Below, in pieces: positions 30,926 through 47,773 of a stretch of 47,890 nt of DNA. The DNA is from Candidatus Melainabacteria bacterium (GTDB lineage Bacteria; Cyanobacteriota; Vampirovibrionia; 2-02-FULL-35-15): NCBI GenBank assembly GCA_016201905.1, contig JACQBQ010000042.1, positions 1 through 47,890 of the forward strand, given 5' to 3'. The first letter of the stretch is position 1; each line of letters starts with the position of its first letter. The notes under the pieces are model-generated. The model was not told the origin of the DNA. It searched no databases and saw nothing but the letters and a program-made list of their open reading frames with translations. The position numbers and the translations under genes are program-made.

Positions 30926-30941
30926 CTGAAAACTGCATACA
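30926..30941. repeat. left arm of outer 16-bp inverted repeat around the 23S gene
   Basis: CTGAAAACTGCATACA here is matched exactly by TGTATGCAGTTTTCAG at 34213-34228, on the other side of the 23S gene. In a minus-strand transcript the two can pair and close the whole precursor, including its leader hairpins. Confidence 0.8.
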
Positions 30942-30945
30942 AAAT

Positions 30946-30967
30946 TGATCCCTTTGTGGTCTAGAGG

Positions 30968-30972
<5 letters not shown>
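30946..30972. repeat. left arm of the 27-bp 23S processing stem
   Basis: This 27-base segment is inverted at 33949-33975 with 25 matches; the two differences give one G-U pair and one A-C mismatch in the RNA. It directly borders the mature 23S end and fits an RNase III-type processing stem. Confidence 0.88.
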
Positions 30973-33928
<2,956 letters not shown>

Positions 33929-33948: not shown

Positions 33949-33975
33949 TTTTTCCTCTAGACTACAAAAGGATCA
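33949..33975. repeat. right arm of the 27-bp 23S processing stem
   Basis: Partner of 30946-30972. Between this arm and the mature 5' end is a small hairpin (TTTGAT/ATCAAA, about 33931-33946). Confidence 0.88.
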
Positions 33976-34007: not shown

Positions 34008-34035
34008 TACAAAATAGGGATGTCCCCATTTTGTA
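34008..34035 (-). other. leader hairpin of the 23S precursor
   Basis: TACAAAAT-A-GGG pairs with CCC-C-ATTTTGTA around an ATGT loop (one A-C mismatch as read on the plus strand). It lies about 80 bases upstream of the mature 23S 5' end within the inferred precursor. Confidence 0.6.
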
Positions 34036-34085: not shown

Positions 34086-34192
34086 TATCAATAATTTCTG
34101 TAAGTGTTTTTGAAAACACTTATGATTCTCTGACAAATCTTTTCTATCAATAACATCAATAAATGTCTTCGAAGACATTTATGATTCTCTGA
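34086..34192 (-). repeat. duplicated 59-base hairpin module in the 23S leader
   Basis: Two copies of a unit spaced 59 bases apart (34086-34133 and 34145-34192). Each has TATCAATAA, then a 20-base palindrome (AAGTGTTTTTGAAAACACTT at 34102-34121; AAATGTCTTCGAAGACATTT at 34161-34180), then ATGATTCTCTGA. The stems differ at two pairs, each by a compensatory double change (G-C to A-T, T-A to C-G), and at the loop-closing pair (T-G to C-G). This argues for selection on the RNA structure. The role may be antitermination, leader processing or protein binding. Confidence 0.75.
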
Positions 34193-34212: not shown

Positions 34213-34228
34213 TGTATGCAGTTTTCAG
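34213..34228. repeat. right arm of outer 16-bp inverted repeat around the 23S gene
   Basis: Exact inverse of 30926-30941. It marks the minimum upstream extent of the precursor if pairing is real, so transcription should begin beyond 34228. No convincing promoter was identified in the next 60 bases on the minus strand. Confidence 0.75.
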
Positions 34229-34267
34229 AATTCAAGTTGACCTAAATTAGGCCATAAAAACACCAAA

Positions 34268-34306
34268 AGAAAAAGCAAAAAACTTTTTTACTCTTTTGTT
34301 TTTCTT
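34268..34306 (-). terminator. A/T-rich terminator-like hairpin upstream of the 23S unit
   Basis: AGAAAAA-G-CAAAA and TTTTG-TTTTTCT can pair, and the minus strand continues into TTTGGTGTTTTT. It would end transcription from the glycosyltransferase/small-ORF unit before the rRNA promoter. Few G-C pairs, so only moderate support. Confidence 0.4.
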
Positions 34307-34463
34307 CATCTTAATTAGCCCCTGCCTAATAAATTAAACAAGGAAATTAAATGGCGGATAATCATGGTATCAATCACTAGTCAGGTGGTCAAGGAATAAT
34401 ATTGAGAAAGTAAAAACCTTGTAAATTCATACCTGCAGACAAGTTAAATTTTGGTATAGACAT

Positions 34464-36935: not shown

Positions 36936-39900
36936 ATGATAGCTATAAAATCAGCAACAGAAGCCACTGCTCGTTTTAGACATGTGTCAAGTAGAGTAGC
37001 ACGTGATTTTTCAAAAGCAGTTGGCCATAATGGAACCGTTTTAAGAAAAACACAAGTAGAGCCTGAGCAGGATACTTTAATTAACTGTAATTTAAAAGCA
37101 GTGCAGGATTTGTTAGTATCAGACGAACTCATTGATCAAAACAAAATTCGTGAACAAATAAAACTTGAATCTGATGAAGAAAAAGAAAGCAGGTTACTCA
37201 AAGCAGAAATTGCAAAGTCTCTTGTAGGTGAGATAAGAAATGATATCAAACAAATTAGTCAACTTTGTGAAGAACATAAAGGTAAACACCCAAAACGACT
37301 AGTTTTGCAAGCAGAAGACTTAATTAAGCAAGCAAAAGAAATAGATACTAAACTGAAAACTCAGCTAATAGGCCAAAGTGCTGACCTTCTTTATATTGCA
37401 TCTTTGCCAATGCAAAAGTCCTTGATAATTAAAGAGCCTCTAACGCTAATTGCGTCAGCAGAAAAGTTCCAGGATTTTATAAAACATGTTGCAAAAAAGC
37501 GTGGTATATCAGAACTAGTAGAGGATGATGAAGTATTAGCACTGACTGCTTATTATGCTACAAGGTCAAAAATTAATCCACAAGGAATTATTCAGCACTT
37601 GCCAGATAAGCTTATAAGTCTTGGTGATAAAAGCTATGAGTGTAGAGTCAGGGTTCTTGCAAAGCATTTTTTTATTGACTTAAAGAATCAGAAGTCTGCT
37701 CGTGATATAGAGCTTTTTTTAAAAACCCATAAGTATATGAGTGAGTTTAAGAGCTCCGGGCTAGACTTATTAAGTCGTTTGCTTTCTTTTAGGGAGCTGG
37801 TAAAAGTTGCTTTTCCCAATCATATTACAGGTGATAATCCTATGATTAGAGAGTGGCTGTTACCAAAAGAATCACAAGAAGAGGATTTTGAAGAACTCTG
37901 CAATAGAGGACTTGCTTGGGTGTTGCAATTTGGTGAAGGAGTATTTGATGAAAAAACAAGAGCGTTTAACTTAGAAAAAATGAGATCTGTTAATTGGCGG
38001 AATATTTTTAGAAAGCATGGGTTGCGTTTAGATTGTATGCCGCATATCTCAAATACACTAGAGGCAATAAAAGCTGGTGCAAAAAAACTTGGAAGAGATG
38101 ACTTGTTAGGTCTTGAAAGAGAGGATCAACTTCACCCATGGGATGTTAGAAGAAGCTGTATGTGGGAGGAAAAAAGTGAAAGTAAAGAAAAATTAATTAA
38201 TTGTATAACTAAGTTTTTAGTAGAAGTATATTTTCGCAAAAAATATCCATTTATGTTTAAAGATAATGGGAAGGGAAAACTAATCCCACGGGAATTATTG
38301 AAAGTGTCAAATTGGGGAGATGAATTTAATTCTGTAGACTCTGAATGCTTGCAGAGCTCTGGCATTGGACCTGTTGGAGCTTTGCAAACAGCTTATCCTG
38401 AATGCTTTGGATGGGAAGAGAGTAAAATTAAACCTTCTGAGATATTTTATCCTGGGATTTGGTATGGAAAAGAAGGAGAAAAATTATTTGCGCAGACTTT
38501 TGCTTATTGTTTGTCTAAAATGGGGCTTGGAAAGTTTAATTCTGGTGGAGAACCGCCATTAATATTTACAAAGGTAGAATTATTTAAATGGAAAAATGAA
38601 CATCTTAAAACATGGAAAGAATTATTCCTTTCATTTAATGCTTTATGTAAGAATATGAATTCTGTTTTTAAAGATATCTGTGGTCAGAATATTATAACTG
38701 CTTTTAAAATGTTGCTTGGTCCTTTAAATGAGCAAACTAGATGTTTTGGTGGTTCAGATATTTTACCAAGTGATGTGAAAGCTAGCAGAAGAAGAAATTT
38801 AAGATCAGACAAATCTGTAAATTTAATAGAATGTAGAGTAGAGAGTAATAATTCTGAAGAAGTTATTCAAGATGAAAAACAAATCCCACCAGTTGATATT
38901 TCAAGTCAAAATTCTGAGACACATCCTGCTGAAGGTGATAGATCACCAAGTATAGAAGAGCTAAATAAAATTGAAAATGAATTGCCTGATGAAGTTCATT
39001 ATAAGGATAAAGAGTTAATAGATGCAGACTCTGGAATTGATGCAGATGATTTAATTGGTTTGTATCTTAAAGAAATGTGGAAAATACCACGTATTAAAAG
39101 GGAGAAAGAAATTGAACTTGCAAAAAGAATTGAACCTCTAAGAAAACTTAATGAGGTAACTAAAAAACTTTCAGAAGAATTAATATCACAAGGAATAAAC
39201 AGGGAGCCATATGATAATGAACTTTCGACTGCAATGGATATTTCCGTTGAAGAAATAAAGAAAATTAAAAATGGAGATCCTGACATAATTGATGCAAAAG
39301 ATGAACTTGTCCGGGCAAATCTCAGGCTAGTTGTTTCAATTGCTAAAAGATATAGAGGTAGAGGACTTTCTTTTCTTGACCTGATTCAGGAAGGCAATCT
39401 TGGTCTAATGCGTGCAGCAGAAAAGTATAATTATAAATTAGGATTTAAGTTTGGAACTTATGCTACATGGTGGATTAGGCAAGCCATTACTCGTGCACTT
39501 ACAAATAAGTCAAGAACTATTCGTGTTCCTGCACATATAGTTGAAAATATAAGCGAGCTTAATAATGCAGCTAAAAAATTAAATTCACAATTAAATAGAG
39601 AACCAACTGAATATGAGCTTGCAGCTGCAATGGGTACTTCTGCTGAAAAAGTAAAGGGCATTATTGCTGCAAATAAGACAACATCTATTTCTTTTGGAGA
39701 CATAGGTGGAAAAGAAGAAGACAAAGAACCAGGAGATTTTATAGAAGATACTAAAGCTTTGCAGCCTGAGATTTTAGCTACGAACAATTTCTTAGGAACT
39801 GACATAGAAGAAGTTTTAAAAAGCCTTTCCCAAAAAGAACGTGAAGTGATTCGGTTACGTTTTGGACTTGACGGTGAAGGACCAAAAACACTTGATGAAG

Positions 39901-40016
39901 TAGGTAAGCTTCTTAAAATTACCAGGGAACGTGTTCGTCAAATTGAACAAAAAGCAATGATTAAGTTAAGAAAACCTCACAGGCGTGTAAAACTTCAAGG
40001 TTATTTAGATGACTAA
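36936..40016 (+). CDS. giant sigma-70 factor with about 630-residue novel N-terminal region
   Basis: A 1026-aa protein whose C-terminal third is a complete RpoD-family sigma factor. Region 1.2 starts near residue 703 (DLIGLYLKEMWKIPRIKREK). A spacer of about 50 residues follows (NEVTKKLSEELISQGINREP), like that of cyanobacterial SigA. Region 2 lies near 788-855 ([40 protein letters not shown]), region 3 near 856-930, and region 4 near 961-1015 (LDEVGKLLKITRERVRQIEQ). Residues 1-630 match no family I know: mostly helical, with W-rich segments (CNRGLAWVLQFGEGVFDE, VNWRNIFRKHGLRL, SKIKPSEIFYPGIWYGKEGE). An acidic, Ser-rich linker (about 635-705) joins the halves. The N-terminal part could be a sensor, anti-sigma-like or DNA-binding module. 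A prkA operon follows. Confidence 0.88.
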   Translation: MIAIKSATEATARFRHVSSRVARDFSKAVGHNGTVLRKTQVEPEQDTLINCNLKAVQDLLVSDELIDQNKIREQIKLESDEEKESRLLKAEIAKSLVGEIRNDIKQISQLCEEHKGKHPKRLVLQAEDLIKQAKEIDTKLKTQLIGQSADLLYIASLPMQKSLIIKEPLTLIASAEKFQDFIKHVAKKRGISELVEDDEVLALTAYYATRSKINPQGIIQHLPDKLISLGDKSYECRVRVLAKHFFIDLKNQKSARDIELFLKTHKYMSEFKSSGLDLLSRLLSFRELVKVAFPNHITGDNPMIREWLLPKESQEEDFEELCNRGLAWVLQFGEGVFDEKTRAFNLEKMRSVNWRNIFRKHGLRLDCMPHISNTLEAIKAGAKKLGRDDLLGLEREDQLHPWDVRRSCMWEEKSESKEKLINCITKFLVEVYFRKKYPFMFKDNGKGKLIPRELLKVSNWGDEFNSVDSECLQSSGIGPVGALQTAYPECFGWEESKIKPSEIFYPGIWYGKEGEKLFAQTFAYCLSKMGLGKFNSGGEPPLIFTKVELFKWKNEHLKTWKELFLSFNALCKNMNSVFKDICGQNIITAFKMLLGPLNEQTRCFGGSDILPSDVKASRRRNLRSDKSVNLIECRVESNNSEEVIQDEKQIPPVDISSQNSETHPAEGDRSPSIEELNKIENELPDEVHYKDKELIDADSGIDADDLIGLYLKEMWKIPRIKREKEIELAKRIEPLRKLNEVTKKLSEELISQGINREPYDNELSTAMDISVEEIKKIKNGDPDIIDAKDELVRANLRLVVSIAKRYRGRGLSFLDLIQEGNLGLMRAAEKYNYKLGFKFGTYATWWIRQAITRALTNKSRTIRVPAHIVENISELNNAAKKLNSQLNREPTEYELAAAMGTSAEKVKGIIAANKTTSISFGDIGGKEEDKEPGDFIEDTKALQPEILATNNFLGTDIEEVLKSLSQKEREVIRLRFGLDGEGPKTLDEVGKLLKITRERVRQIEQKAMIKLRKPHRRVKLQGYLDD

Positions 40017-40427: not shown

Positions 40428-40433
40428 ATGAAA

Positions 40434-42728
40434 ATGCCAATTGATCCAGTTAATTCAGGAGTACCTGCAAATACCACAGTAGCCCCTGTTAAAGAAAAAA
40501 ATGATGATGCTAATCCTGAAAGAAGTACTTCTTTTTCATCTACAGGATCAGAAAATGGAGTAAATGCAGGACTTGGTGCACTAGCAGAAAATGCAGAGAA
40601 GTTAAGTGCTTTATTTAGAATTGCAAGATCTTCTGTCACAGTAGCAACACAGGCAGCACGAAATGAACAGATCTCCTTTGATAAATATTTAGAAAAAGTT
40701 TCTGAAAATCCCAAATTAATTCGTTTATCAGCTCAAAGAGCTTATGACATGATTTTATCTAAGGGTAGAAATGCTATTGAAGTGGATGGAGAACCGATTT
40801 ATGAATATGAGTTCTTTAGACATACAGTAGATCCTCGCGATTCAATTTCAGGTGTAAAAAAAGCAATTCATTTATTTGTAGAAGCAATTGGTGGAGCTGC
40901 AAAAGAAACAGGTCCTGATCAAAGAATTATCCTTCTTGCAGGTCCAGTAGGTTCAGCAAAAACGACTCTGGCAAGAGGACTTTTTAGAGGACTTGAAGAA
41001 TATTCTGCAACGGAAGAAGGAGAGATGCATGCCCTTGGCTGGAACCTGAGAGATGAAAAAGGCGAACTCCTTAAGGACAAAAAAGGACAGCTGCTGTTTA
41101 AGTATGTTGATCCTGATAAATCATGCGAAATATTTGAAGATCCTTTAAATGTTATTCCTCTTGGATCAAGAAAACAAATTATAGAGGTTTTAAATGCACA
41201 GAGACTGAATGATGCTAGAAATGCAGGTATTCCAATTGATTATTTGCTTGGCACACATTCCCAATTATGCCCTTCATGCCAAAATATTTTTAATAAGCTG
41301 GTTGAGCATCATGATGGTGATATGGATAAAGTTCTAAGTCATGTTGTGGCAAAGAGATTAATACTTAATGAAAAAACAAGGACTGGAATTACTTTTTTTG
41401 GTGCAAAAGATGAAAAAAGTCACAATGCAAATGAGCTTTCTGGCAGTGTAAATGTTAGAAAATTATTGCAGATAGGTACTGATAGTGATCCCCAAGCAAT
41501 TACACTTGATGGTGATGTATTAAAAGCTAATAGAGGCGGAGTACATTTTGGTGAATTCATAAAACTTCCAAATGAAATCAGGTATCCCCTTCTGGATGGT
41601 GCACAGGACAGAGCTGTAAAAGTAGCTAGAAATGCAATGGTTGACTTTGACAGCTTGCTTATTGCTACTACTAATATGCCTGACTGGAGAAAAATAGCAA
41701 GAGATGAACACCAGGAAGCTATCAGAAGCAGGATACTTCCTGTAACAGTTCCATATCTGGATAGAATCCAGGATGAAATGGGCATTTATCAAAAAACATT
41801 CTCTGCAAAAGCTAAGCAGCTTGGAATACATGAAGCGCCTCACTCTTTGTGGCTTGCTTCTTTGTGGGCACTGACTACTCGTTTAGCAGAACCTAAGGGT
41901 GCAAATGTTACACATATACAAAAGGCTTATCTGTATAGTGGAAAGCGAATAGCTGGATTTACAGAGCAGGAAGTAACTCAGATGAAAAGAGATGTTTCTC
42001 CTGAAGAAATGGAATTGCTTAAAGGTGTTTCTCCGAGAGACATTCAGGATGCTTTAGCATCAGCTCTTGAACATCCAGTTGTTACAGACAGAGAAAAAGG
42101 AACAAGGTGTGTCGATCCATTTATTGTTGTTGATACATTGAAAAGCCGCTTAAAGCAACTTGTTGCAAAAATCACTCCTGAGGATAAAAAAGCCTGGAGT
42201 ACAAGGCTTGAAGAGGTTGAAAAAGAACTGGATAGAAAACTATCTGATGATGTTAGAAAAGCTGTAAGTGGAGATTCAAAGGAAGTTAAGAATCTTTTTG
42301 ATAATTACATCATGCATGTAAAAGCATGGGTAAAGAAAGAAAAAGTTAAAGATCCCCTTCAAGGAAATAAGCTTGTAGACCCAAATGAAAAGCTTATGAA
42401 ATCTATTGAAGAAAAGAGAGGGATTAATGATACAAGGCGTCAGGACTTTAGAAGAGGATTGATAGAGCAAGTCGGTATGATGAGTATTGAAGGCAAAGTG
42501 TTTGATTATGATACCGATGAGCAGTTAAAACAATCTATCGAAGAAGCACTACTTGAAAAACATAGAGATGTTACCCTGCCCGTAATGAGTGTAGAGTTTG
42601 CAAATGAAGAGCAAAGAAGAAAGCTTGATACTGTAAAAACCAGGTTAATTGAAGAGCATGGTTATTGTCAACACTGTGCACAAATAGCCATGAGACGTAC
42701 TCAAGCTCCTGAAAATAGAGGCAGATAA
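40434..42728 (+). CDS. prkA: PrkA (YeaG)-type serine protein kinase, full length
   Basis: PrkA-family AAA+ protein/kinase of about 764 aa; PrkA and YeaG act in sporulation, nitrogen starvation and stress in other bacteria. The start at 40434 is preferred because AGGAG then lies eight bases upstream, versus two for the ATG at 40428. A disordered N-terminal extension of roughly 60-75 residues precedes the core. Walker A is LLAGPVGSAKTTLARGL near residue 170, then FEDPLNVIPLGSRK and the CPSC knuckle near 278 (GTHSQLCPSCQNIF). The sensor-type ATTNMPDWRKI is near 410 and the LWLASLWALTTRLAEP segment near 467. The C-terminal kinase-like part (470-764) is complete, with LMKSIEEKRGINDTRRQDFR. It is first in the operon prkA-spoVR-DUF444-prkA2. 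A C-terminal HGYCQHCA could bind metal. Confidence 0.93.
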   Translation: MPIDPVNSGVPANTTVAPVKEKNDDANPERSTSFSSTGSENGVNAGLGALAENAEKLSALFRIARSSVTVATQAARNEQISFDKYLEKVSENPKLIRLSAQRAYDMILSKGRNAIEVDGEPIYEYEFFRHTVDPRDSISGVKKAIHLFVEAIGGAAKETGPDQRIILLAGPVGSAKTTLARGLFRGLEEYSATEEGEMHALGWNLRDEKGELLKDKKGQLLFKYVDPDKSCEIFEDPLNVIPLGSRKQIIEVLNAQRLNDARNAGIPIDYLLGTHSQLCPSCQNIFNKLVEHHDGDMDKVLSHVVAKRLILNEKTRTGITFFGAKDEKSHNANELSGSVNVRKLLQIGTDSDPQAITLDGDVLKANRGGVHFGEFIKLPNEIRYPLLDGAQDRAVKVARNAMVDFDSLLIATTNMPDWRKIARDEHQEAIRSRILPVTVPYLDRIQDEMGIYQKTFSAKAKQLGIHEAPHSLWLASLWALTTRLAEPKGANVTHIQKAYLYSGKRIAGFTEQEVTQMKRDVSPEEMELLKGVSPRDIQDALASALEHPVVTDREKGTRCVDPFIVVDTLKSRLKQLVAKITPEDKKAWSTRLEEVEKELDRKLSDDVRKAVSGDSKEVKNLFDNYIMHVKAWVKKEKVKDPLQGNKLVDPNEKLMKSIEEKRGINDTRRQDFRRGLIEQVGMMSIEGKVFDYDTDEQLKQSIEEALLEKHRDVTLPVMSVEFANEEQRRKLDTVKTRLIEEHGYCQHCAQIAMRRTQAPENRGR

Positions 42729-42747
42729 CATAGGAGTAGGTGTCAGA

Positions 42748-44592
42748 GTGCTTCAAAGGACTTTACCAGTTGGACAGACTGTTCCAGGCTATGTAGCAAA
42801 AGTAGCTGGCAGTACAGCAGGTGATAAAAAAGACTTGACTGTCTGCTCACAGTCGACTACTGATGTAACCCAAGTTAAAAATGTAGAATTACCTTATGAA
42901 TATAAGGCAGCTGCAGCTATAGGAAGAGGAATTACAGGACAAAGAAGTTATCCTGTATCTCCTGAAACAAATCCTGAATATTGGAGCTGGAATAAAAAAA
43001 TCTATGAAGTAGCAAAAAGAGAAGGACTTGATCTGTATGATGTAGTTTATTGGGTATGTAGAAGAGACGCACTACTTCAAGCTGCTGCAAGAGGTGGATT
43101 TCCGGTAAATCTTTCTCACTGGAAAAATGGAATGGAATTCTATGAATTACATGAGGGTCATAAGTTTAATTTATCAAGAATCTATGAAATGATCATTAAT
43201 AATAATCCTTCTCATGCATATTTGCTTGAAGGAAATGATCTTGTGGATCAAAAACTTGTTATGAGTCACTGTATGGGACACTCTGATTTCTTTAAAAACA
43301 ATATTCACTTTAGACATACAGATAGAAACATGCTAAACAGAATAGCTGAGCATGCTGCATATCAAGGACATGTGTTAGATACTGAAAGTGTTTCATTTGT
43401 TGAAATGGAAAAGTTTTTAGAGAGAGCATATTCAATAGACGACTTAATTGACTATTCAGATCTTGAGCCAAGGCAGTTACAATTTGAGCTTCAGCAGGAA
43501 AAGCATGCAGATAAAATACCGGATGATTATGGAATAATTGATGTTCCGGAGTTACCAAGCCATATGCAAGGCAGAATTAATGATCCAGAAAGAATCAAGA
43601 AAGAAAGAGAAGTTGAAAGAGGTCGCCTGGAAAGAGAAGCCCAAAAAATCCCCAAGCACCCAGATTATGATGTTATAGGATTTATAATTGAGCATTCTAA
43701 AGCTTTAAAGCCATGGCAAAGACAAGTCCTCATGCATATAAGAGAACAGGCATATTACTATGCTCCTCAAGGACTCACTAAAATAATGAATGAAGGCTGG
43801 GCTGTCTACTGGCATAGAAAGCTTATGTCTCATCCGGAAATTGTGGATCTAAGACATGCATCAGCTTTTGCAGATCATAATGCAGGTACCATTGCAATAT
43901 CTCGTGGACAAATAAATCCATACAGAGTAGGGTATGAAATATTTATGGATATTGAAGAGCGCTGGAATACTGGTCGCCATGGGGAGAAGTGGGGAGAAAT
44001 AGAAGATGAAAGAGAAAAAAGAGATTTTGATGATAAGTCAATGAAAGGTTTTGGAAAGATTTTTGATGTGAGAAAGTGGGAAAAAGATGCCACATTTGTA
44101 GATAAGTATCTTACCCCTGAAGTTGCAGAGAAACTAAAACTCTTTACCTGGGAACAAAAAGGTGAAGACTATGTGATAGCAAGCAGACGATTTGAAGAAG
44201 TAAAAGCAAAACTTGTTCAGCAGCTTCATAGGGGTGGAAGGCCTGCAATAGCTGTTAGAGATGGGAATTATGATAATAAAGGTGAGTTACTTTTACATCA
44301 TGATTTTAGCTATGATTTAAAACAAGACTATGCAATAGAAACTTTAAAAAACCTTTTATCGCTCTGGGGAAATGCAGTACATTTAAATACAAAGCTCTAT
44401 TTAGACGATGATAAACCTACACCGGTAAGAATTACAGCAGAAAATATAATACTTATGGATTCGGATAAAGAAAAACCAGGCATAAGAATTACCTTTAGAA
44501 AAGCATATGAAAAAACCAATGAAGATGGCTTAGTTGAATTTCACCCTGCTACAGATGTCTTGAATGAAATCAAAGAAGAGGTTCAACCTTAA
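42748..44592 (+). CDS. spoVR: SpoVR family protein
   Basis: SpoVR/YcgB-type protein of 614 aa, a family of unknown biochemical activity that travels with PrkA and DUF444 proteins. Family regions are clear: PVNLSHWKNGMEFYELHEG, INNNPSHAYLLEGND, VMSHCMGHSDFFKNN with FRHTDRNML, KPWQRQVLMHIREQAYYYAP and IMNEGWAVYWHRKLM. Conserved His, Cys and Glu in these blocks look like a metal site. The start is GTG at 42748 with AGGAG eleven bases upstream. The N-terminal 85 or so residues (VTQVKNVELPYEYKAAAAIG region) extend beyond the usual start, and the protein is longer than the roughly 470-510 aa typical of relatives. Confidence 0.93.
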   Translation: MLQRTLPVGQTVPGYVAKVAGSTAGDKKDLTVCSQSTTDVTQVKNVELPYEYKAAAAIGRGITGQRSYPVSPETNPEYWSWNKKIYEVAKREGLDLYDVVYWVCRRDALLQAAARGGFPVNLSHWKNGMEFYELHEGHKFNLSRIYEMIINNNPSHAYLLEGNDLVDQKLVMSHCMGHSDFFKNNIHFRHTDRNMLNRIAEHAAYQGHVLDTESVSFVEMEKFLERAYSIDDLIDYSDLEPRQLQFELQQEKHADKIPDDYGIIDVPELPSHMQGRINDPERIKKEREVERGRLEREAQKIPKHPDYDVIGFIIEHSKALKPWQRQVLMHIREQAYYYAPQGLTKIMNEGWAVYWHRKLMSHPEIVDLRHASAFADHNAGTIAISRGQINPYRVGYEIFMDIEERWNTGRHGEKWGEIEDEREKRDFDDKSMKGFGKIFDVRKWEKDATFVDKYLTPEVAEKLKLFTWEQKGEDYVIASRRFEEVKAKLVQQLHRGGRPAIAVRDGNYDNKGELLLHHDFSYDLKQDYAIETLKNLLSLWGNAVHLNTKLYLDDDKPTPVRITAENIILMDSDKEKPGIRITFRKAYEKTNEDGLVEFHPATDVLNEIKEEVQP

Positions 44593-46013
44593 TGAAAATC
44601 AAAGAAGTTAGTAAACCAATTAACCCCATGGAAATACCTCCAGTAAAGATTTCCGCAGATGCACAGCCATTGCTAGCAGCTACGCCGGCAGATTTGCTTG
44701 GAATAGAAAAATCAAATTCAAAACTAACTCTAGAGGCACCTACAGAAGCACAAACTGTCCCAACTATTATGCCTCGCATTCTCCCGCCGAGCTTACTAAC
44801 ACACTTTCTTCTTTTTGATTCTGTCTCTGATCCTGATTTGCAAAGATATAACGATATTCTTAGAGGCAAAGCTAGGGAGGAATTAAAAAAATTTAAAACT
44901 CCAGGTGAAATGCTTGGAATAAAAGGTGGAAAGATAGTCAGTATTCCAGTACCAAAAATAGGACTTCCTCACTTTACCAGAGGAAGTGGAAAGGGTGGCG
45001 GAGCTGCTCAAGGTGATGGAAAACCTGGTGATTCACTAACACCACAAAAAGGAGACGGTAGTTCAGGAGCTGGGGATCAGCCTGGTGGACACATACAGGA
45101 AATATCGGTCCCGATGACGTTAAGTGAAATAGCAGAACTCATAATAAAGGATCGTAAGTTACCTTACTTACAGCCAAAAGGTTATGGAGTTGCAAAAGAA
45201 AAGGCTATTAGATGGAATACAAAAAGTAAAGTAGGAATAGACATAGATCTTCAAGCCACTATAATTAATGCTTTAAAAAGAGTAGGCTCAGAAATAGGAG
45301 ATCAATTTAATCTTGAAACAGAAGAAGGATTAAATGCATTATTAGACCAGGTTGCTATTGAAGAGCAGGACAAGGTTTATATATCGTGGAGAGAGATAGA
45401 AAAGCCACAAGTATCTGCAGTGATTATTTATATGATGGATGTTTCAGGCTCTGTAACTGATGAAATGAAAGAAAAAGTTAGAAAAACAGCCAGATGGCTT
45501 TCTCTTATTATCCAGTATCAGTTTGGACAAGTTAGAGCAGATCTAAGAGGAGAAAAGTTTTCAAATGAAAGCTTTGGAGAAGGTGTTGAAGAAGTCTTTA
45601 TTATTCATGATGCTGCTGCACAAGAAGTAACCGAAGAACAGTTTTATACTACAAGGGAAAGTGGTGGTACAAAAATATCACCTGCTTATGAGCTTGCAAG
45701 AAAAATTATAAAAGAAAGATATGATCCAGATACCTGGAATGTGTATGCTTTTCACTTTAGTGATGGGGATAATTGGGGGGACGATAATTCACGGGCAATT
45801 GAGTTAATAGAAGAGCTATCAAGAGAAATCAATGAGTTTGGTTATATTCAAGTAGCTTCGGAATATGGAAGTGGTGAATTTTATGACTATGTAAAAGCAT
45901 TTACAGAAAATCAGATGCATGTCAGGACTGTAAAAATTGCAGCAGCAGGTAATGAGGACATTGATAAAGTTATAGATGAAATGTTTGCAGAAAAAGGAGA
46001 TAAAAAAGATTAA
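44592..46013 (+). CDS. yhbH: DUF444 (YhbH/YeaH) family protein with von Willebrand A-like domain
   Basis: YhbH/YeaH-type protein of 473 aa, the usual partner of PrkA. The VWA-like domain carries the metal-ion-dependent adhesion motif D-x-S-x-S in MMDVSGSVTDEMK near residue 282, then GGTKISPAYELARK and FHFSDGDNWGDDNSRAI. The Gly-rich linker (TRGSGKGGGAAQGDGKPGD) before it is common in the family. The N-terminal 100 residues (Pro/Ala-rich, PPVKISADAQPLLAATPADL) are an extension. The start codon shares a base with the spoVR stop (TAATG), so translation is coupled, and the next gene is coupled the same way. Confidence 0.92.
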   Translation: MKIKEVSKPINPMEIPPVKISADAQPLLAATPADLLGIEKSNSKLTLEAPTEAQTVPTIMPRILPPSLLTHFLLFDSVSDPDLQRYNDILRGKAREELKKFKTPGEMLGIKGGKIVSIPVPKIGLPHFTRGSGKGGGAAQGDGKPGDSLTPQKGDGSSGAGDQPGGHIQEISVPMTLSEIAELIIKDRKLPYLQPKGYGVAKEKAIRWNTKSKVGIDIDLQATIINALKRVGSEIGDQFNLETEEGLNALLDQVAIEEQDKVYISWREIEKPQVSAVIIYMMDVSGSVTDEMKEKVRKTARWLSLIIQYQFGQVRADLRGEKFSNESFGEGVEEVFIIHDAAAQEVTEEQFYTTRESGGTKISPAYELARKIIKERYDPDTWNVYAFHFSDGDNWGDDNSRAIELIEELSREINEFGYIQVASEYGSGEFYDYVKAFTENQMHVRTVKIAAAGNEDIDKVIDEMFAEKGDKKD

Positions 46014-47773
46014 TGCCACCTATTCAGGGAATATCAGGAGCTGGTGAAGTCAGGACTAGTGGTGGAATTATCCTTCCACAGGGTGCTTTAGATATTGTTA
46101 GTGCATCAGCTTCTCTGACAGATGCTGTTTCTGTATCTGATTCAAAAGGCTTACAGGAAAATTTTTCGACAGGATTTCTTGAAAGGGCACAGGCTAATAA
46201 AGCCAGGTTTATGGCTGAAAAACCATGGATGCAGTTTCTTAGTGAATACATTCCACAAGTAGAGCAAAATCCAAGGAAATACCTGCGTCAGGTAGCCAGG
46301 TATTTTTTAGATGCAGTTGAATATTGGGATAAGGTTTGTGGTGTAGAACCAAATAAAAAAGTAAAAGTAACAGGTGGAGGACTAATTCATCCTTATGCTT
46401 TTGTTACTAAGCCCTGGGAGCCTAAAGAATTAGTTGACAAAGAACTTGTTCAGGACCAACTGGTTTTCTGGAATGATTTAATTGAGCAAATGAAAGTAGT
46501 ATCAAGGAAAAAACATCCAAATAAAATGATTGTGGTTCATGGACCAAATGCTACTGGAAAATCACTAACTTTTGATACCATGTTTGGAATGCTGGAAGCA
46601 TATTCTAAAACAGATGAAGGGGCTCTTTATACTTATGAATGGGTTTTTGGAAATATGCCAGGAAATATGGGATTTCATAGTAGCGCAGAGAGCCAAAAAA
46701 AAGGAGAGAAAATTGATAGAGCTGATGTTGCAATTAGTATACCTGCTGGTAAAAATGCAAATCCAATTTTTCTCTTAGATAAAAGTGAAAGAGTAGAACT
46801 ATTAAAAAGATTAAATGCTGGTGGAAAAATACCGGAAGATTTAAACACAGATTACCTTTTGTCTGCTGAAGCCAATGATTTATCCCGAAGGGTTTATGAG
46901 TCACTTTTAGGCCTCTATGAAGGAGATGTTGAGAGTGTATTAAATCATGTGCATGTAGTCAGGTGGACATATTCAGCTCAAGGTAGAAGAGGACTTGTTT
47001 TGATTCAGCCAAATGTAACTCCAAATACAAAGCTTGTTGAAGTTACACCTGAAATAAATTGGGATGATTTACCACGTCCTATTGTAAATGCATTTAGAAA
47101 TGCAGGGATTCATATGATAGAAGGGGATGAAGCAGAAGCAAATCACGGATTAATTGTCTATGATGACTTTTTAAAAGATGCTGTTCAGGGGGAACATATT
47201 GGTTCTATGGATGAGTTTTTACATCTTCTTAGATTTGCTGAAAAAGGGAAAACCACTATTTCTACCACTACTACTAAAGGAAGAGGAGCACATGCAGTAG
47301 ATGAAACCTTTGATGTCCTGATGTTTGGAACTACAAATGATGATACTTTAATGCTGCTTGAAGAGAAGTATTCTGAGTGGCCTTCCCTTAATGCCAGACT
47401 TTTAAAAGTAGCAATGTGGATGGCAAGGGTTTATAGACCGGTTACAGAAATATTTAGACCTCAGTTATTACAACTAGTCCCTCCAAAAAGTAACAGGCAT
47501 ATTTCACCAAATGCTCTTGAATCATTTGGTTTATGGGTAACTATGACTTATCTTTTCCCTCCTCAGAACCCTAATTACTATAATTCGCTTCCTCACATAG
47601 ATGAAAGTATTAAACCAAGACTAAACGCGCTACTGAAAAGCAAAATGTCAATTCTTGAGAAAGCACTTTTATACCAGCGTGAGGATATTAATTCCTACAG
47701 ATTAAGCACTGACGATAGAGGATATTCACAGGAAGAAAAACAACTTTTAGAAGCTCATACGAGATGTGAATAA
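46013..47773 (+). CDS. second PrkA-like ATPase, lacking most of the C-terminal region
   Basis: A PrkA paralogue of 586 aa. After a Ser/Ala/Gly-rich N-terminal tail of about 50 residues it aligns with the AAA+ part: FLSEYIPQVEQNPRKYLRQV, Walker A VVHGPNATGKSLTFDTMFG near residue 174, then IFLLDKSERVELLKRLN, HGLIVYDDFLKDA, LMFGTTNDDTLML and SPNALESFGLWVTMTYLFPP near 498. It ends about 90 residues later, whereas the first PrkA runs nearly 300 further. The CPSC knuckle is replaced by SAEAND, and the Walker A GPVGSAKTT by GPNATGKSL. It thus keeps an ATPase core without the C-terminal region linked to PrkA kinase activity, and may form mixed rings with, or regulate, the first PrkA. It is coupled to the DUF444 gene by TAATG. 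Confidence 0.88.
   Translation: MPPIQGISGAGEVRTSGGIILPQGALDIVSASASLTDAVSVSDSKGLQENFSTGFLERAQANKARFMAEKPWMQFLSEYIPQVEQNPRKYLRQVARYFLDAVEYWDKVCGVEPNKKVKVTGGGLIHPYAFVTKPWEPKELVDKELVQDQLVFWNDLIEQMKVVSRKKHPNKMIVVHGPNATGKSLTFDTMFGMLEAYSKTDEGALYTYEWVFGNMPGNMGFHSSAESQKKGEKIDRADVAISIPAGKNANPIFLLDKSERVELLKRLNAGGKIPEDLNTDYLLSAEANDLSRRVYESLLGLYEGDVESVLNHVHVVRWTYSAQGRRGLVLIQPNVTPNTKLVEVTPEINWDDLPRPIVNAFRNAGIHMIEGDEAEANHGLIVYDDFLKDAVQGEHIGSMDEFLHLLRFAEKGKTTISTTTTKGRGAHAVDETFDVLMFGTTNDDTLMLLEEKYSEWPSLNARLLKVAMWMARVYRPVTEIFRPQLLQLVPPKSNRHISPNALESFGLWVTMTYLFPPQNPNYYNSLPHIDESIKPRLNALLKSKMSILEKALLYQREDINSYRLSTDDRGYSQEEKQLLEAHTRCE

Follow-up and report, generated by a model that had tools for sequence, protein, structure and literature searches.

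Two tandem copies of a 48-nt hairpin module lie in the predicted 23S rRNA leader of a Candidatus Melainabacteria bacterium, and they are probably leader-side helices of the pre-23S rRNA that aid folding or processing of the precursor. The module is most likely an order-specific, previously undescribed element of an already known kind, the pre-rRNA leader helices. Comparison among relatives shows, at the level of sequence, its position, its predicted fold, its restriction to pre-23S, the conservation of the promoter and the leader-trailer helix; we infer that the modules act in assembly or processing and that RNase III removes them.

The window, the whole 47,890-nt stretch of DNA that was analyzed, carries a single rRNA gene, a complete 23S gene at 30968–33926 on the minus strand, running from 33926 to 30968; no 16S or 5S gene was found within it. 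Because the gene is on the minus strand, the modules, at 34086–34192, lie 160–266 nt upstream of 23S in the direction of transcription. The genome's own 16S gene is on a separate contig, where it is truncated by the contig edge, and the 16S genes of relatives are likewise solitary. Thus, the rRNA genes are unlinked, an arrangement for which our literature search found no report in Melainabacteria. In the genome set, the order consists of one family of 11 genomes, the window's genome included, and the 23S leader is available for eight of these.

The sequence-only reading had described two similar modules at a spacing of 59 bases, and these are confirmed as a direct repeat of 48 nt (34086–34133 and 34145–34192, with an 11-nt linker at 34134–34144 on the minus strand), identical at 39 of 48 positions (81%) and separated start to start by 59. 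The best 48-mer match within the leader is this one at 39/48; among 400 dinucleotide shuffles of the leader, none exceeded 32/48. Copy a, the first transcribed (34145–34192, minus strand, RNA-sense UCAGAGAAUCAUAAAUGUCUUCGAAGACAUUUAUUGAUGUUAUUGAUA), scores 80 bits with the covariance model, and copy b (34086–34133, minus strand, RNA-sense UCAGAGAAUCAUAAGUGUUUUCAAAAACACUUACAGAAAUUAUUGAUA) scores 70 bits. Copy a contains a perfect 12+12 palindrome at 34159–34182 and is predicted to fold into a UCAG/UUGA stem, an internal loop of AGA opposite GUUA, an AUCA/UGAU stem and a 13-bp hairpin closed by a UCGA tetraloop; in copy b, the outer pairs and the hairpin are kept, and the lower AUCA/UGAU stem is lost. 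Pair probabilities within the modules are 0.72–1.0 when the full leader is folded. The flanks had been regarded as linear kept sequence. They are indeed kept as sequence, but in the predicted fold they are partly paired, UCAG with UUGA in both copies and AUCA with UGAU in copy a.

Two compensated pairs in the stem had also been taken as direct evidence that the fold is kept. The pairs are real, being A-U/G-C and C-G/U-A double changes between the copies, and the third difference sits in the loop. The probability that four random changes in a 9-bp stem leave all pairs Watson-Crick is 0.0012, which rises to 0.012 if only transitions are considered and to 0.14 if, in addition, G-U pairs are allowed. 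Given a palindromic stem and four base changes that are transitions without exception, the two copies alone provide moderate evidence, to which the relatives add.

The module is present in six of the eight genomes with an available leader, always at the same place, so that the similar hairpins whose absence from close relatives would have spoken against the proposal are found there. The window's genome has two copies and the other five have one each, so repetition is not essential to the element. In the window's genome, the second copy arose by local tandem duplication; copy a is more like the relatives' single copies, which suggests that copy b is the duplicate that diverged. Of the 48 columns, 29 do not vary among the seven copies, and one of the outer pairs is G-U in all of them. 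As in pre-rRNA leader helices, the stem has been retained through compensated changes, with both bases replaced in four of the stem pairs, a number attained by 3 of 500 shuffles, which do not model kinship. Of the cells in the stem alignment, 96.6% are paired, versus 28–49% in slid versions, a control biased toward the structure, as this was derived from the same sequences. In two genomes (G001 and G002), the leader is present with no recognizable module, and the module is therefore dispensable. When named genomes were scanned for the module pattern, four Candidatus Melainabacteria assemblies matched, nzgw192, nzgw193, RIFCSPLOWO2_02_FULL_35_15 and RIFCSPHIGHO2_02_FULL_34_12, all from the window's family.

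Upstream of the modules is a predicted 23S promoter, TTGACC-17-TACCAT (34364–34392, minus strand), conserved in eight family genomes; the promoter-like block common to these genomes is followed in the window by TTATCCGCC. From this block, transcription is predicted to begin near 34357, ahead of both modules rather than downstream of 34086, where a start would have contradicted their being transcribed with 23S. Retention in related genera and the conserved promoter upstream support the view of an element of the 23S leader with a kept fold. Downstream of the promoter, the leader contains, in order, a hairpin, CTGAAAACTGCATACA (34228–34213), the modules, a third hairpin and TGATCCTTTTGTAGTCTAGAGGA (33975–33953). 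The hairpin before boxA (34266–34307, minus strand) comes from the predicted fold and is boxB-like in position only. The third hairpin (ACAAAATGGGGACATCCCTATTTTGT, 34009–34034, minus strand, z −6.3) is conserved in position in relatives, including one that lacks the module; its covariation is weak, being equaled by 99 of 500 shuffles, and we do not count it as a second covariation proof. Leaders of two other relatives (L008 and L013, from G009 and G007) carry extra hairpins that are unrelated to the module and inserted elsewhere, and the leader side therefore tolerates insertions.

The modules are framed by a leader-trailer helix in two parts. The 5′ strand of the outer helix, CTGAAAACTGCATACA (34213–34228, minus strand), is the end of boxA plus the cyanobacterial D4 element and pairs with TGTATGCAGTTTTCAG in the 3′ flank (30926–30941, minus strand). 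The inner helix, a 22-nt stem of the kind cut by RNase III, joins TGATCCTTTTGTAGTCTAGAGGA (33953–33975, minus strand) to CCTCTAGACCACAAAGGGATCA (30946–30967, minus strand), and the two 3′-flank strands are separated by only 4 nt. Across 11 distinct sequences of the class, the outer helix shows eight compensated pairs, versus 1.8 expected in shuffles, and, because its strands lie 3 kb apart, this compensation does not come from local palindrome repair. The modules thus sit on the 5′ (leader) side, between the two parts of the helix, the place of a leader helix. In 9 of the 12 cyanobacterial loci examined, TTGAAAACTGCATA, which corresponds to the spacer elements boxA and D4 of Cyanobacteria, occurs 29–111 nt before 23S. 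Its position just before the cyanobacterial 23S gene means that the modules occupy the place of the spacer's V3 helix. The boxA, a likely antitermination signal, and the likely RNase III stem are separate elements that neighbor the modules.

The module appears confined to this setting. It is absent from the six family 16S leaders, where it had been suggested that it be sought (the genome's own 16S being truncated at the contig edge), and is therefore no general rRNA leader signal. These six leaders (L036–L041) belong to 16S genes that are transcribed alone; they start with a similar TATTAT…TCCGCC or TTCGCC block, have a conserved promoter-like block, and contain a boxA-like CTGAAAA and leader-trailer complementarity of their own. 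A genome-wide search found no further copies of the module, which rules out a dispersed, REP-like repeat; a weak match on contig C10 falls within an open reading frame and reflects chance similarity of low-complexity sequence. A covariance search of 240 genomes of the class gave only chance-level matches outside the family, the best of which (G099, E 7e-4 per genome over the 240) is no better than the palindrome's reverse-strand echoes. No Rfam family scored above its gathering score, and a relaxed threshold yielded only chance-level matches.

Several known systems resemble this arrangement. In Escherichia coli pre-16S rRNA, helices hA and hB are located on the leader strand of the leader-trailer helix, deleting them reduces activity by 30–40% with an effect on fidelity, and not all relatives have them, their number differing even between operons within a genome (PMC10250234). 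The modules are likewise leader-strand hairpins of ~10 bp that lie between boxA and the mature rRNA, interrupt the leader-trailer helix and differ in number among relatives. Unlike hA and hB, they are part of the pre-23S transcript of a gene that stands alone, have a conserved sequence of 48 nt in common, include one tandem duplicate and are known from sequence alone. The likeness to the V3 helix, which lies between D4 and 23S in the cyanobacterial 16S–23S spacer, is one of place relative to boxA and D4, with no sequence relation seen, and the modules' spacer is, in contrast, a leader with its own promoter. As for the rrn boxB-boxA-boxC site, a boxA-like element is found in the same 23S leader and before 16S, but the module itself contains no boxA, which lies upstream of it. 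The module can be rejected as such an antitermination site, as the boxA-like string at 34213–34228 is outside both copies.

It is because this anatomy equals that of enterobacterial pre-16S with hA and hB that we read the modules as leader-side helices. Transcription would begin near 34357, boxA being made first, and the modules and third hairpin would fold while the polymerase advances. With the 3′ flank transcribed, both the boxA/D4 strand and the inner strand could pair with it, and the modules would then branch from the leader-trailer helix, which is split, on its 5′ side. In that position, they would probably hold ~230 nt of leader compact, clear of both 23S folding and leader-trailer pairing, and they would be discarded once RNase III cuts the helix.

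The 29 invariant columns exceed the needs of a pure spacer, which hints at a bound partner. It is possible, though unlikely, that the module is a specific site for an rRNA-transcription or 50S-assembly protein (be it a Nus factor, a ribosomal protein or one specific to the lineage), with the two copies binding two molecules. The invariant flanks UCAGA.AAUCA and UAUUGAU and the internal loop, all kept as sequence, would fit such a site, as would the position of the module ~20 nt past the boxA/D4 string in the window's genome and the NusB gene that the genome contains. Such a site, however, finds no match in Rfam, is missing before 16S, whose leaders carry a separate boxA-like CTGAAAA, and is not recognizable in two members of the family. 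In a narrower version, which we regard as doubtful, an undescribed protein-binding RNA element specific to the order would serve only the unlinked 23S transcript, its duplication in the window's genome setting 23S output or assembly relative to the 16S, which is transcribed separately. Alternatively, the hairpins could be extra sites for RNase III or another endonuclease, separating the leader before the main cut. Their double-stranded stems of 9–13 bp with an internal loop and the presence of an RNase III gene are compatible with this, but stems of this length are short for RNase III and the leader has a separate, better kept leader-trailer stem of 22 nt that is typical of RNase III sites; we consider this explanation unlikely.

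Two further possibilities seem very improbable. The palindromes, which are near-perfect as DNA and lie downstream of the promoter, could be operators through which a regulator controls 23S transcription. They are, however, ~165–270 bp beyond the predicted start, the genome contains no further copy with two or fewer mismatches, the conserved flanks are not palindromic and one of the outer pairs is G-U throughout. The compensation could instead be mutational, in that template switching, which acts on near-perfect palindromes, re-perfects the stem without selection on the RNA; in each lineage, both strands of the stem do change together. But this mechanism leaves unexplained why position, flanks and internal loop have been kept over several genera and why the whole leader is conserved in parallel, and it cannot account for the outer leader-trailer helix.

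With the modules read as leader helices, the locus offers a small comparative model of a pre-23S leader in a bacterium whose unlinked 16S and 23S genes must be balanced from two promoters. The outer helix with boxA and D4 is maintained by compensated changes across Vampirovibrionia, and hairpins on its leader side are gained, duplicated and lost, as has been reported for pre-16S in Enterobacteriaceae.

The survey also brought out other features. In one relative (G006), the 23S gene is interrupted by an insert of ~700 nt near position 1991 (L068 2652–3346), and in another (G005; L069/L083), it carries inserts of ~670 and ~400 nt near positions 1982 and 2652. These are probably introns, because the larger ones encode LAGLIDADG endonucleases; no Rfam intron family was reported in them. 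Elsewhere in the window, a gene at 36936–40016 encodes a protein of 1026 residues; a full sigma-70 factor (regions 1.2–4) makes up its last third, and its first 700 residues have no Pfam match. Adjoining this unusual sigma factor gene is a row of genes at 40428–47773 for a PrkA kinase, SpoVR, a DUF444 protein and a 586-residue protein without a Pfam match.
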